DNA of 18,940 nucleotides from Thermoplasmata archaeon (GTDB lineage Archaea > Thermoplasmatota > Thermoplasmata > Thermoplasmatales > Thermoplasmataceae): positions 2,649 through 21,588 of the forward strand of contig JAJZWN010000020.1 of NCBI GenBank assembly GCA_021846695.1, given 5' to 3'. Below the pieces are notes generated by a model. That model was given only the letters and a program-made list of their open reading frames with translations, ran no database searches and had not been told where the DNA came from. The translations under genes were made by a program, and so were the position numbers. Each line of letters begins with the position of its first letter. Position 1 is the first letter of the stretch. Shown one piece after another: positions 1,422-14,344 of the stretch.

Positions 1422-2842
<1,421 letters not shown>

Positions 2843-2848
2843 TTAATC

Positions 2849-3496
2849 ATGATGTCAGAAGATGAACAGTTAGAAAAATTGATGAAACCGGAATATATTT
2901 CCAGTTTAACCAGGGCAGTGGAGCTTATTAAAAAGCTCGATAACCTTGGATTTCTGGATGTAATATCCGGTATATTGAGTGACGATGAAACCCTAAAGAC
3001 AGTCTTTAGCCTACTAACAAGCGATGACGTACTCTCTCTTACAACAAAGACTGATTCCGTCATGGTGTTATTGAAAATAATGTCAGAGGAAAAGAATGTA
3101 AAGGCACTGAGCAACCTGCTTGAAATGGTCACTGTAATACAGAATAAAGGCCTTCTGGATCCTGTAATGGGAATACTTAACGACGATGGTGCAATGGGTA
3201 TGGTTATGGGGTTGTTATCCAACGACTTTACCATGAACCTGATCATGAACGAGAAGCCCATTCTTGATTCCCTTGGAAAGCTGGATCTGAGCGTTGCCCC
3301 ACACTATGTTAACATGGTAAAGGCTGTAGAAAATGCCATCAAGAATGATACAGTTACGCCTGTAGGCGGAATGATGGGCACACTTCACGCAATGAAGGAT
3401 GAAGACGCACAGAAAGGCCTTGGTATTGTTTTCTCAATACTGAGAAGCCTAGGCAAAACATGCAGTGATGAATTCAACTGCTCCGCCAAAAAATAA
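2849..3496 (+). CDS. DUF1641 family protein, SQR partner
   Basis: A 215-residue, largely helical protein. Recognisable is the C-terminal DUF1641 block GGMMGTLHAMKDEDAQKGLG (about residues 172-191) followed by a leucine-rich helix. Upstream are repeated helices with GILSDDE, SLLTSDD, GILNDDG and GLLSNDF, suggesting an internal tandem repeat of Leu-Leu-x-(S/N)-D-D type. It ends with two cysteines (CSDEFNC). In archaea and bacteria DUF1641 genes sit beside SQR or formate-dehydrogenase-like genes; their biochemical role is not established, and docking or anchoring of SQR at the membrane is inference. It starts 6 nt after the SQR stop with GGTGA (2838-2842) as Shine-Dalgarno overlapping that stop. 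A second ATG follows immediately, so the true start may be 2852. Confidence 0.8.
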   Translation: MMSEDEQLEKLMKPEYISSLTRAVELIKKLDNLGFLDVISGILSDDETLKTVFSLLTSDDVLSLTTKTDSVMVLLKIMSEEKNVKALSNLLEMVTVIQNKGLLDPVMGILNDDGAMGMVMGLLSNDFTMNLIMNEKPILDSLGKLDLSVAPHYVNMVKAVENAIKNDTVTPVGGMMGTLHAMKDEDAQKGLGIVFSILRSLGKTCSDEFNCSAKK

Positions 3497-3532
3497 TTTT
3501 ATTTTTATTATATAAGACGCATTCTCAACACA

Positions 3533-3540
3533 TTTTAATA
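3533..3540 (+). promoter_or_regulatory. TATA-like element of the tRNA-Gln/sulfur-carrier unit
   Basis: TTTTAATA is centred about 29 nt before the first base of the tRNA, the right place for an archaeal TATA box starting at or just before the tRNA. The preceding 3497-3532 is T/A-rich and probably also ends the SQR-DUF1641 message. Confidence 0.45.
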
Positions 3541-3565
3541 TCCATTTATTATTATGATTAATTAT

Positions 3566-3638
3566 AGCTCCGTGGTGTAGTGGACAAGCATTCCGGACTT
3601 TGGATCCGATGACGGCAGTTCGAATCTGCCCGGAGCTG
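3566..3638 (+). tRNA. tRNA-Gln (anticodon TTG)
   Basis: The cloverleaf folds by eye. The acceptor AGCTCCG (3566-3572) pairs fully with CGGAGCT (3631-3637), with discriminator G3638. The D arm is at about 3575-3591. The anticodon stem CCGGA/TCCGA carries loop CTTTGGA (3598-3604), giving anticodon TTG, and the T arm is GGCAG-TTCGAAT-CTGCC (3614-3630). No CCA is encoded, so the CCA-adding enzyme is needed. The A1-U72 pair is the feature archaeal GatDE uses to recognise mischarged Glu-tRNA-Gln. One irregularity is a C-A mismatch at the top of the anticodon stem (27-43). There is no intron. The U34 of this tRNA class is a known target of 2-thiolation. Confidence 0.95.
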
Positions 3639-3640
3639 TT

Positions 3641-3835
3641 ATGATAGAAGTAGTAGGAAGGAAAAAAGAAAAAATTAGCATAGAAAAGCCTGTGAGGCTA
3701 TCGGAACTATACGATTCTATAGGGGTCAATGAAGATGGATTTGTAGCCATACTTAACGGCGTACCTGCAACATCAGATCATATAATAAATCCGGACGATA
3801 ACCTTGTTCTCCTGGAGATATTTTCTGGTGGATAG
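3641..3835 (+). CDS. Ubiquitin-like sulfur carrier (MoaD/ThiS/Urm1/TtuB type)
   Basis: A 64-residue beta-grasp protein ending in the diglycine FSGG, the tail that is adenylated by an E1-like enzyme and then carries sulfur as a thiocarboxylate or is conjugated to proteins. The central VAILNGVPA and the closing NPDDNLVLLEIFSGG match the ThiS/TtuB pattern, and the length is that of ThiS or TtuB (about 65) rather than MoaD (about 80). It may serve thiamine, molybdopterin or tRNA thiolation; sequence alone does not decide. Its position, 2 nt after tRNA-Gln(TTG), favours tRNA thiolation. There is no Shine-Dalgarno possible outside the tRNA, so after 3' processing of the tRNA the message would begin UUAUG and be essentially leaderless. 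Confidence 0.82.
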   Translation: MIEVVGRKKEKISIEKPVRLSELYDSIGVNEDGFVAILNGVPATSDHIINPDDNLVLLEIFSGG

Positions 3836-3880
3836 GTCAGGTGACATCCTCCCTAGATAATGCAAGGGGCTTCCCGCTTA
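3836..3880 (-). mobile_element. Probable right-end scar of an IS200/IS605-TnpB type element
   Basis: Read on the minus strand this is a short GC-richer patch with GGGAAGCCCC, then CCCTTG-loop-CTAGGG, then GGAGGATGTCACCTGA. From memory this layout (GAAGCCCC, a hairpin, GGGGAGGATGTCAC) is the conserved 3' end, and the omega-RNA scaffold, of archaeal IS200/IS605 and TnpB-only elements. Here the hairpin has decayed (one mismatch in the stem) and there is no transposase or tnpB nearby. It fills the gap between two convergent genes and may supply the last codon or two of the CCA-adding enzyme. The alternative is a bidirectional terminator. No comparison could be run. Confidence 0.45.
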
Positions 3881-5161
3881 GGAGTTGAAAAGATACTTTG
3901 AAAAGAACTTTCTTACAACTTCAAGGTCTGTATCTTCCCCATTTATAATTTTAATTTCATCCTTTAACTCATTTAGATTTTTTCCTATGTCAGAGTTTTT
4001 CAGTTCCTTCCTGATAATCCCCTCCATATCTCTCTGTTCGGTTCTTACATCCACATAAACCCTGTTTTTCAGGATGTACGGGCCGCGCATTAACCTTGCA
4101 TTACTGTTCCATACATCTATGAATTTTATACTTTCATTTGATTCAACAGGTGGGCCCATATGAACCTTTGTTCCTGGGAGCATTCCAAGTTCGCATTCAA
4201 TTAAAATTTCTATATCGCTACCCACATATATTTCTGAGGCAACAGGCATGAAACCATTGTTATGAAGTATATCCCATATCCTGTTTTTTAATCTTACCGC
4301 CTGCGGATATATGATATCATCTATAATATCCGGTTTTTTTACAACAAAAACCATTATATGCGTTCCCCTATTCTTATTTATCCTCGGTGTGTGATTGAGG
4401 ATATCCTCCCTTCCGGCCATATATAGTTTAGATGCAAGTTTGAGCCTTGAGAGATTCTCCTCGCTGACTGCAGCACCAGCATTTCTGGAAGGGTCTACAG
4501 GATCTATTATTATCACAGGCTCAGAGAATTTATCCTCCGTATTTTCAGGAACGATCAGCTTACCTCTCAGGTTTGCCATATATCCCATTAGCCTGTCAAA
4601 ATTTTTAAAATGTATTATAAGAAGTTCACAGAGATACCCTGAAAATCCAGATCTGGATATCTCGGAACCGTATACGTTGATGCTCTTCATGAATACCTTT
4701 AAAAGCCTAATATCATGAACCATTGCTTCATCCGTATTACTGTTGACATAAAGTGTATGCAGCGGCGTTCTGTCCACCGTGGAAACTATTTTTTCTCCCT
4801 CACTGATTTTAAATGCAGGAACAACATCTACTTTTATTCCCATGACGTAGCCTGAAACATAGGGGTGCTCCGCGTATTTTTCTGTTCCATTCTCCAGTAC
4901 CCGGTGCCCTATTTCAAGGCCTTTCTTCTCTATATAATCTACAGAATATGATTTATCAAATGTGACAAATATATCTATATCGCTTGATTTTAAATTTGTA
5001 TTCTTTGATACAGACCCCACCTCTGTGCAGGATGCATTTATATTGTCTGCCTTGCATATATCATTTATTTTCTGGATAATTGTTGAGGAAATTTCACCTA
5101 GCTTTTTTGTTTCTTCACTGGTGGGGATCTGTTCAGCAAGAAGGTTTTCTAGATAATTCAT
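3878..5161 (-). CDS. cca: CCA-adding enzyme (archaeal class I tRNA nucleotidyltransferase)
   Basis: A 427-residue enzyme that builds or repairs the CCA end of tRNAs without a nucleic-acid template. The class I nucleotidyltransferase signature GSVSKNTNLKSSDIDIFV places the two catalytic Asp in DID, and the third carboxylate is in VDVVPAF. An RNTHIM-like region and a C-terminal tail domain follow, and the total length fits the archaeal family (430-450). I chose ATG 5161 (MNYLENLL): the longer reading to 5245 would run through the NAC gene and adds 28 residues unlike the family N-terminus. It begins 1 nt after the NAC stop, so it is co-transcribed. Its 3' end faces tRNA-Gln, which lacks an encoded CCA. 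The last residues (NS, stop) touch the element scar. Confidence 0.92.
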   Translation of the reverse strand: MNYLENLLAEQIPTSEETKKLGEISSTIIQKINDICKADNINASCTEVGSVSKNTNLKSSDIDIFVTFDKSYSVDYIEKKGLEIGHRVLENGTEKYAEHPYVSGYVMGIKVDVVPAFKISEGEKIVSTVDRTPLHTLYVNSNTDEAMVHDIRLLKVFMKSINVYGSEISRSGFSGYLCELLIIHFKNFDRLMGYMANLRGKLIVPENTEDKFSEPVIIIDPVDPSRNAGAAVSEENLSRLKLASKLYMAGREDILNHTPRINKNRGTHIMVFVVKKPDIIDDIIYPQAVRLKNRIWDILHNNGFMPVASEIYVGSDIEILIECELGMLPGTKVHMGPPVESNESIKFIDVWNSNARLMRGPYILKNRVYVDVRTEQRDMEGIIRKELKNSDIGKNLNELKDEIKIINGEDTDLEVVRKFFSKYLFNS

Positions 5162-5162
5162 T

Positions 5163-5495
5163 TTAATTTCCGAGGTCCAGAATTGCCTGTGCCGGTTCTC
5201 CACCTGCCTTTTTAAGTGCCTCCATGGCCTTTTCCCTGGAAACATTGCACTGTTCCATTACAAGTTTTATATCCTCCTCATTAAACCCTTCATCCTGCTG
5301 TACCTTTGCCTTCTCCTTGAATGTGCCCATTACCTGGAATGTTTTCTGGCCCTGGGCTTCAATCATGGTAACTGAGGCATTTTCTATTACGTAATCTTTG
5401 TCTTTACCCTTCAGTATAACCTCTTTAACATCAGGCATTTCTGTGGATTTTATTCCCATCTGGTTCATCATTCTTCTTACATCTCTCGGATTCAT
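5163..5495 (-). CDS. nac: Nascent polypeptide-associated complex protein (archaeal NAC)
   Basis: A 110-residue homodimeric ribosome-associated chaperone that meets nascent chains at the exit tunnel. The N-terminus (MNPRDVRRMMNQMGI) is the basic ribosome-contact segment. The NAC barrel follows (VKEVILKGKDKDYVIENASVT through QVMGTF, about residues 23-62), and a C-terminal UBA domain is visible (FNEEDIKLVMEQCNVSREKAMEAL, about 72-95). The length is typical. A TATA-like AATAAAAG on the minus strand lies near 5514-5524, overlapping the stop of the upstream membrane-protein gene and centred about 24 nt before the ATG, which fits an internal promoter giving a leaderless message. The CCA-adding enzyme follows after 1 nt. 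Confidence 0.93.
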   Translation of the reverse strand: MNPRDVRRMMNQMGIKSTEMPDVKEVILKGKDKDYVIENASVTMIEAQGQKTFQVMGTFKEKAKVQQDEGFNEEDIKLVMEQCNVSREKAMEALKKAGGEPAQAILDLGN

Positions 5496-13882: not shown

Positions 13883-14317
13883 TTATTCGTTGTTAACTTT
13901 TATTACACTCCACGGGCAGGCTGTAACACATGCCATGCAGAATATGCACTCAGTTTCCCTTACAGGATTTGATTTATCCGTTCTGTATTTTTCCCATTCA
14001 GGAGTTCCCTTCTCTACCTTCTTATCATTTCCAGTTCCAGAGTTTCCAGGGTTAAGTTTCCACTCGAACAGGTCAACAGGGCAGACATCCATGCATGCTC
14101 CATCGGCAATGCACCCGTCCCAATCAATAGCAACAGTTGTTCCATGTATACCTAATTTTGTAGGATAGGGTTTTCCATTATCATCCATTCTCTGCATCCC
14201 ACCGGCCCTTACCTTAAGTCCATCCTCTTCACCGGTTACCGGGTAATTCTTCTCGTCGCTAAGGAAATTCTCATCTATATGCTTTGGATCAAAATCCACG
14301 TCTTCTCTCTGTACCAT
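13883..14317 (-). CDS. zfx: Dicluster ferredoxin of the Zfx family, lacking most zinc ligands
   Basis: A 144-residue soluble ferredoxin, likely electron acceptor of 2-oxoacid:ferredoxin oxidoreductases. Cluster I motif CIADGACMDVCP (Cys69, 75, 79, with Asp72 at the second Cys position) suits a 3Fe-4S cluster or an Asp-ligated 4Fe-4S. Cluster II CIFCMACVTACP (Cys124, 127, 130, 134) is a full 4Fe-4S. The 40-residue N-terminal extension and the insert KLNPGNSGTGNDKK between the clusters are as in Thermoplasma. By alignment from memory with Sulfolobus Zfx, zinc ligands His16, His19 and Asp76 correspond to Glu31, Leu34 and Asn117 here, and only His58 remains. I chose ATG 14317: an AGGTGA Shine-Dalgarno lies 7 nt upstream and contains the alternative GTG at 14326. 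Confidence 0.93.
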   Translation of the reverse strand: MVQREDVDFDPKHIDENFLSDEKNYPVTGEEDGLKVRAGGMQRMDDNGKPYPTKLGIHGTTVAIDWDGCIADGACMDVCPVDLFEWKLNPGNSGTGNDKKVEKGTPEWEKYRTDKSNPVRETECIFCMACVTACPWSVIKVNNE

Positions 14318-14344
14318 TAATGTCACCTTTAAAGAGTAATGCTT

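Follow-up and report, generated by a model that had tools for sequence, protein, structure and literature searches.

We analysed an 18,940-nucleotide stretch of contig JAJZWN010000020.1 (positions 2,649 to 21,588) from a Thermoplasmata archaeon, referred to here as the window, in which a transfer RNA (tRNA) gene for tRNA-Gln(UUG) is followed, two nucleotides later and on the same strand, by an open reading frame (ORF) for a ubiquitin-like sulfur carrier. The gene pair is conserved in most of the family of Ferroplasma, and we consider it fairly probable that it is a cotranscribed, tRNA-first unit in which the tRNA would serve as punctuation, its excision yielding the carrier mRNA, with no dedicated feedback circuit. 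ARAGORN found a single tRNA in the window, tRNA-Gln(TTG), with ends given as 3565–3639. The pairing that retains U8, AGCTCCG (3566–3572) with CGGAGCT (3631–3637), places the mature ends at A3566 and at the discriminator base G3638, as in the original prediction, so that the tRNA is read as 3566–3638 of the plus strand with CCA not encoded. The spacer TT (T3639 and T3640, plus strand) separates the predicted tRNase Z cut from the start codon of the carrier ORF (3641–3835, plus strand, stop included; ATG at 3641–3643, stop at 3833–3835), which specifies a 64-residue carrier of the SAMP2/ThiS type with a beta-grasp fold and a COOH-terminal GG. The tight arrangement originally described was thus borne out. 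The window belongs to genome G000 of the genus here numbered g1, which also contains Ferroplasma acidarmanus Fer1 (G060); in the copy of the locus in G000 (L001), no additional in-frame start was found from 30 nucleotides before the tRNA end to the ATG.

To follow the arrangement across relatives, 117 genomes of the order were taken; 84 had a carrier match, 71 of these among the 77 genomes of the Ferroplasma family, and all 71 carrier loci of the family were fetched. tRNA-Gln(UUG) was located 5' of the carrier, on the same strand, at 66 of the 71 loci (65 by ARAGORN, plus L051, whose tRNA is interrupted by N). The distance from the discriminator to the start codon was 18 nucleotides or less in 61 of the 71 genomes. 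It was 7–18 nucleotides at 45 of the 66 loci, often with a Shine-Dalgarno (SD) sequence, and 61–206 nucleotides at five. Gaps of 1–3 nucleotides characterized all 15 loci of genera g1, g2 and g13 and, unreliably, L042; the gaps of L042, L051 and L087 were read by eye. A pattern consisting of the 3' half of tRNA-Gln and then ATGATH within 19 nucleotides matched in 44 of 62 genomes of the family versus 2 of 338 others in a 400-genome sample of the class. Recurrence of this order and strand in 66 of the 71 genomes, together with the concentration of the tight pattern in the family, indicates more than a chance linkage. A search for related loci yielded two named loci, and a search for homologous proteins five close relatives.

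From the two other families of the order, 14 carrier loci in 13 genomes were fetched, and none has an adjacent tRNA; at one of them tRNA-Gln(CUG) lies approximately 900 nucleotides from the carrier. Within the family, the six genomes (of 77) without a carrier match gave a tRNA-Gln(CUG) at the tRNA-Gln locus read in each, as expected if one missing contig holds both tRNA-Gln(UUG) and the carrier. Weak partial second tRNA-Gln matches were seen in G081 and G082. The five genomes that have the carrier without the linkage are all those of genus g15, where the carrier instead follows a PAC2 gene (by Pfam on one of the five). The original prediction had regarded an unlinked arrangement in close relatives as evidence against it; such an arrangement was found in this sister genus, whereas the family's remaining 18 genera did not show it. 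Genus g15 is probably Thermoplasma, because its PAC2-carrier order agrees with the link that passages of Makarova and Koonin 2010 (PMC2948915) describe for two Thermoplasma genomes. The ThiS-family gene described there would thus be a related carrier, probably from the sister genus, headed by a PAC2 gene, whereas that of the window is headed by a tRNA. The same survey of archaeal ubiquitin-like gene neighbourhoods has no match for "tRNA gene" in its main text, and our literature searches, which covered open-licence papers, turned up no report of a tRNA-Gln/carrier linkage; passages of PMC3848588 had no bearing on the matter.

In an rpoB tree of 28 rows, those of g1, g2 and g13 formed one clade (SH-aLRT 99) that was sister to g15 (82). 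The tree covers 7 of the 15 genomes of the three genera; G092 (no rpoB match) and G055 (partial) are absent, and G096 is a broken row. Because the tree places the three genera together beside g15, the simplest history has the linkage already present in the ancestor of the family and lost in g15, with the gap collapsing once, in the ancestor of the window's clade (g1, g2 and g13). A convergent origin of the short gap was left without support by this single grouping; outside the clade, gaps in the family are at least 7 nucleotides, the unreliable L042 assembly aside. The gap of approximately 3 nucleotides at L042 (genus g14) was not counted as a second collapse, as the tRNA looks misassembled; the rpoB match of that genome is in three pieces and two frames. 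A gap of 126 nucleotides at L087 was likewise dropped, the carrier beginning 7 nucleotides after the tRNA with its frame broken by an N gap, and the locus was counted as short.

The carrier protein passed the broad Pfam ThiS cut-off (26.3 bits against 22.5) and no other, just missing Pfam SAMP2 (26.6 against 27) and falling far below the curated NCBIfam SAMP2 family score (15.2 against 70). An AlphaFold2 model based on 39 family sequences, chosen from the 71 loci, gave a beta-grasp domain (pLDDT 88.9), for which the best solved matches in Foldseek were TtuB (5ztb, 5gha), a molybdopterin synthase chain (2q5w_D) and Pyrococcus furiosus SAMP2 (5lda); the COOH-terminal GG was invariant in all 39 aligned sequences, that of the window included. 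The protein thus resembles the carriers SAMP2, Urm1 and TtuB, which work with NcsA-Ncs6/TtuA and the E1 enzyme UbaA, in fold and in its GG terminus, and differs from them in its SAMP2 score, its function being predicted. Proteins of PF01171 (the Ncs6 superfamily) and PF00899 (E1 type) were present in all eight genomes examined, in keeping with the original view that the carrier may be of the kind used for 2-thiouridine (s2U) formation; the one protein of each type that was scanned falls below the NcsA and UbaA equivalog cut-offs. The PF01171 protein of F. acidarmanus scored higher for NcsA than for TtuA, below both curated cut-offs. According to passages of PMC4048286, Haloferax requires NcsA, SAMP2 and UbaA for thiolated tRNA-Lys(UUU), and the same has been proposed for Gln(UUG); PMC11323500 describes a requirement for the ubiquitin-like protein UblA for efficient s2U formation in tRNA of Thermococcus kodakarensis. 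Most likely, the carrier would serve tRNA 2-thiolation via an Ncs6/NcsA-type enzyme, with tRNA-Gln as one probable substrate. In six of the eight genomes, another PF02597 carrier, regarded as MoaD-like, occurred together with MoaE; both were unseen in G048 and G069, and an exclusive role of the tRNA-linked carrier in molybdopterin synthesis is weakly argued against. The Ncs6/NcsA-like gene of F. acidarmanus (L090, 1330–2286) is itself followed after 36 nucleotides, on the same strand, by tRNA-Ile(GAU) (2323–2397), and tRNA-Ile is also located downstream of this gene in G000, G068 and G073.

The layout of the pair is that of a protein operon headed by a tRNA: the two genes share a strand and are separated by a short gap that has no terminator-like T run. 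The proposed transcript would contain two genes with tRNA-Gln(UUG) as the first cistron, and its promoter would be located just upstream of the tRNA. A TATA-like sequence, TTTTAATAT, is found at 3533–3541 of the plus strand, 33 to 25 bases 5' of the tRNA, and by sequence reading is a candidate promoter element for the whole unit. It recurs at the same place, 25–33 nucleotides 5' of the tRNA, in six other g1 loci (L002–L007); L015 reads differently there, and L012 and L013 lay outside this comparison. Near position 3519, 5' of the tRNA, the window differs from the G000 copy (L001, G000:C9) by at least one base; it also extends 406 bases beyond the end of the G000 contig. With a crude TATA matrix built from the upstream regions of 31 F. 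acidarmanus tRNAs, no site inside the tRNA scored above −0.4 in the window's clade, weak as this matrix is. The original claim that there is room for a promoter only upstream of the tRNA is in keeping with these results, and, as no well-scoring TATA-like site lies within the tRNA, one transcript is likely. No T run longer than two was found downstream of the tRNA, where T content was the lowest among 32 F. acidarmanus tRNAs examined, partly because the region is coding.

RNase P and tRNase Z, both established enzymes, would then excise the tRNA and leave the carrier mRNA as the downstream product. In most of the family the released mRNA would have a leader of 7–18 nucleotides, often with an SD sequence; in the window's clade it would start with UUAUG and be leaderless. 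The ORF start lies within approximately 5 nucleotides of the tRNA 3' end at all 15 loci of the clade (1–3 nucleotides), as expected for tRNA punctuation, and a tRNase Z gene scored above cut-off in all eight genomes examined, which supports the predicted release of a leaderless message. In a 398-kb sample of F. acidarmanus with our own crude gene calls, an SD-like tetramer preceded 34 of 58 operon-internal starts versus 23 of 142 divergent first genes (background, 8.4%), and first genes showed an AT peak near −30, consistent with leaderless starts. Leaderless mRNAs are in wide use in Thermoplasma according to passages of PMC7531240, and passages of PMC6877293 give start sites in this genus only as RNA-seq approximations. 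Given that first genes mostly lack an SD sequence and that Thermoplasma uses leaderless messages, an mRNA starting with UUAUG is of the kind that this lineage should translate. That the pair is transcribed as a whole, cut by tRNase Z and translated without a leader is our inference.

Several points weigh against this reading. Although the matrix gave a better score 5' of the tRNA than within it at 56 of 58 loci, these loci are not independent, given the conserved, G+C-rich interior of the tRNA, and the matrix is weak, with the G000 copy scoring low (1.4 upstream versus −0.8 inside). Messages released by cutting bear a 5'-monophosphate and may be short-lived. As to the role of the carrier, the E1 protein of G000 came closest to ThiF in NCBIfam (202 of 275 bits), with UbaA at 147 of 450, both below cut-off; and the absence of a second carrier from G048 and G069 is a weak negative, because PF02597 missed the tRNA-linked carrier itself in these genomes and could miss others. 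The gene for the CCA-adding enzyme is also a conserved neighbour, so that part of the conservation may reflect general conservation of gene order. Finally, a separate promoter is possible at the five loci with gaps of 61–206 nucleotides. These loci, together with the age of the gene block that includes the CCA enzyme, favour an independent carrier promoter, with adjacency being inherited gene order without cotranscription. In the window's clade, however, such a promoter would have to sit inside the tRNA, where no TATA-like site scored well, and gaps of 7–18 nucleotides, often with an SD sequence, are typical of operon-internal genes. We judge an independent promoter to be quite unlikely.

The original prediction had also stated that no SD sequence can exist outside the tRNA. 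This stands for the clade of g1, g2 and g13, which leaves no room for one; inside the tRNA, however, the 3' acceptor strand contains GGAG (3632–3635, plus strand), 5 bases from the ATG, a possible but unsupported SD sequence. The uncut precursor might therefore be translated by way of this GGAG, making tRNA maturation and carrier synthesis mutually exclusive. The spacing of 5 nucleotides in g1 is suitable, given that GGTG or GGAG lies 5–8 nucleotides before operon-internal genes of F. acidarmanus in 27 of 31 instances. The 3' acceptor strand is CGGAGCT at all 15 loci of the clade, with AGCTCCG as the 5' strand at the 12 of these listed, whereas AGCCCCG/CGGGGCT predominates elsewhere. The same AGCTCCG/CGGAGCT stem is nevertheless present in tRNA-Gln(CUG) of G000, G060 and G041, behind which no gene starting with ATG follows within 40 nucleotides, and the stem change is therefore not tied to the carrier. 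The predicted pairing is approximately −5 kcal/mol with either stem, and the strand lies in the acceptor helix in the predicted fold. The minimum-energy fold computed for the transcript's 5' portion was not a clean cloverleaf and was unremarkable relative to shuffled sequences (z = −0.88). Since the rpoB tree makes the gap collapse most simply one event, there is no repeated co-change of stem and gap, and tRNA-Glu(UUC) also has GGAG in this strand, with no ORF of at least 50 codons found to start in the next 60 nucleotides. Translation from the embedded SD sequence, once the favoured reading, was dropped after the rpoB tree and the tRNA-Gln(CUG) control, and we now consider it unlikely. Judging from a second match to the pattern, G042 may have an ATG 10 nucleotides behind another stem of the AGCTCCG/CGGAGCT type.

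In a homeostatic loop, as the original prediction had proposed, carrier output would be tied to maturation of tRNA-Gln(UUG), the thiolation substrate of the carrier. The chemistry is plausible, given the Ncs6-superfamily and E1 genes in all eight genomes and the Haloferax and T. kodakarensis systems described above. In F. acidarmanus, two of the three tRNAs of the U34-thiolation type head a gene within 18 nucleotides versus none accepted among 29 other tRNAs, a post hoc count covering 32 of the 44 tRNAs of one genome. The other of these two units, however, encodes RpoH. tRNA-Lys(UUU) heads an rpoH-like gene in all six genomes looked at, from five genera (L146 and L197–L202; F. acidarmanus, by Pfam on its protein, and five others, including the g15 genome looked at), with 11–16 nucleotides from the ARAGORN tRNA end to the ATG in five genomes, an ambiguous start in G097 and an SD-like tetramer visible in every gap; here the family conserves a further unit with a tRNA at its head. 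In all five g15 genomes, which retain the carrier apart from the tRNA, tRNA-Gln(UUG) heads an unrelated, conserved ORF of 146–170 amino acids with a hydrophobic stretch, 11–15 nucleotides downstream (L169 and L172–L175; no Pfam match in the one scanned). In six genomes of the family (L168, L170, L171, L176, L180 and L182), an ORF of 128–161 amino acids lies 21–115 nucleotides after tRNA-Gln(CUG), which is not a U34 target; the one scanned is DUF1940 (221 bits). The carrier loci of the other families, without an adjacent tRNA, also speak against a loop.

Given that tRNA-headed units recur in the family with unrelated partners, a loop specific to thiolation is weakened, and we regard it as very unlikely. 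The full proposal, in which maturation of tRNA-Gln(UUG) would determine, via a leaderless mRNA from the tRNase Z cut, how much carrier is available to thiolate the wobble base of this same tRNA, is highly improbable. If true, cells with spare or slow tRNA processing would alter their carrier output, and the circuit of tRNA modification would be self-adjusting. The linkage would rather be one of several tRNA-headed operons in the family. The observation behind the original prediction was thus right, and wider than was known at the time, and its transcript logic is likely, whereas the regulatory loop is unsupported. Two ORFs behind F. acidarmanus tRNAs were rejected as tight units: one located 6 nucleotides after tRNA-Ala(GGC) was taken as spurious, with no Pfam match, and in the other, behind tRNA-Ala(TGC), kinase homology begins approximately 38 codons into the ORF. 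Similar DNA lies behind tRNA-Thr(CGT) (L138, after 2432) and tRNA-Thr(GGT) (L147, after 9277) of this species; at L147 it runs into a 411-residue ORF, recombinase-like by eye, and these may perhaps be elements integrated at tRNA genes.

The neighbours of the tRNA-carrier pair vary more than the pair itself. Upstream in g1 and g2 are a DUF1641 gene and an SQR-like gene; in the window, the SQR-like FAD oxidoreductase gene and the DUF1641 gene stand back to back at 1607–3496, the latter (2849–3496, plus strand) ending 69 bases before the tRNA. The SQR-like/DUF1641 pair of g13 sits downstream of the carrier in convergent orientation. Upstream of tRNA-Gln in g3, g4, g5 and g14 is a ferredoxin gene homologous to window positions 13883–14326 (L024, L025, L027–L030, L008–L011, L042, L047, L057, L061, L064 and further g4 loci). 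At four g5 loci the ferredoxin stop codon lies 8–10 nucleotides before the tRNA, which therefore sits within an apparent operon there. The gene for the CCA-adding tRNA nucleotidyltransferase, outside the unit in the window (3878–5245, minus strand), is a widely conserved, convergent downstream neighbour in most genera of the family, beside a tRNA without encoded CCA; it was not seen in the fetched flanks of g7, g13, g14, L007 and two of the five g15 loci.

Among known systems, the Escherichia coli thrU-tyrU-glyT-thrT-tufB operon is a bacterial example of tRNA genes leading a protein gene in one transcript, with an ordinary leader containing an SD sequence between tRNA and protein gene, whereas only two nucleotides separate them here. 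Near-leaderless mRNAs are found in mitochondria, and cleavage at the 3' end of the window's tRNA would yield a message of the same sort. In human mitochondrial tRNA punctuation, as described in passages of PMC10941002, RNase P and RNase Z release RNAs from transcripts in which, as here, a tRNA abuts an ORF; in contrast, the window has just one unit of two genes, located on the chromosome of an archaeon, with processing predicted from its sequence. In the window's clade, only 1–3 nucleotides separate the 3' end of a tRNA from a start codon, a compact archaeal case that allows tRNA processing and translation initiation to be tested in the same molecule, and with them whether a leaderless mRNA is translated when its 5' end comes from processing. 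The pair is also a conserved genomic association of a tRNA gene with the gene of a ubiquitin-like sulfur carrier.
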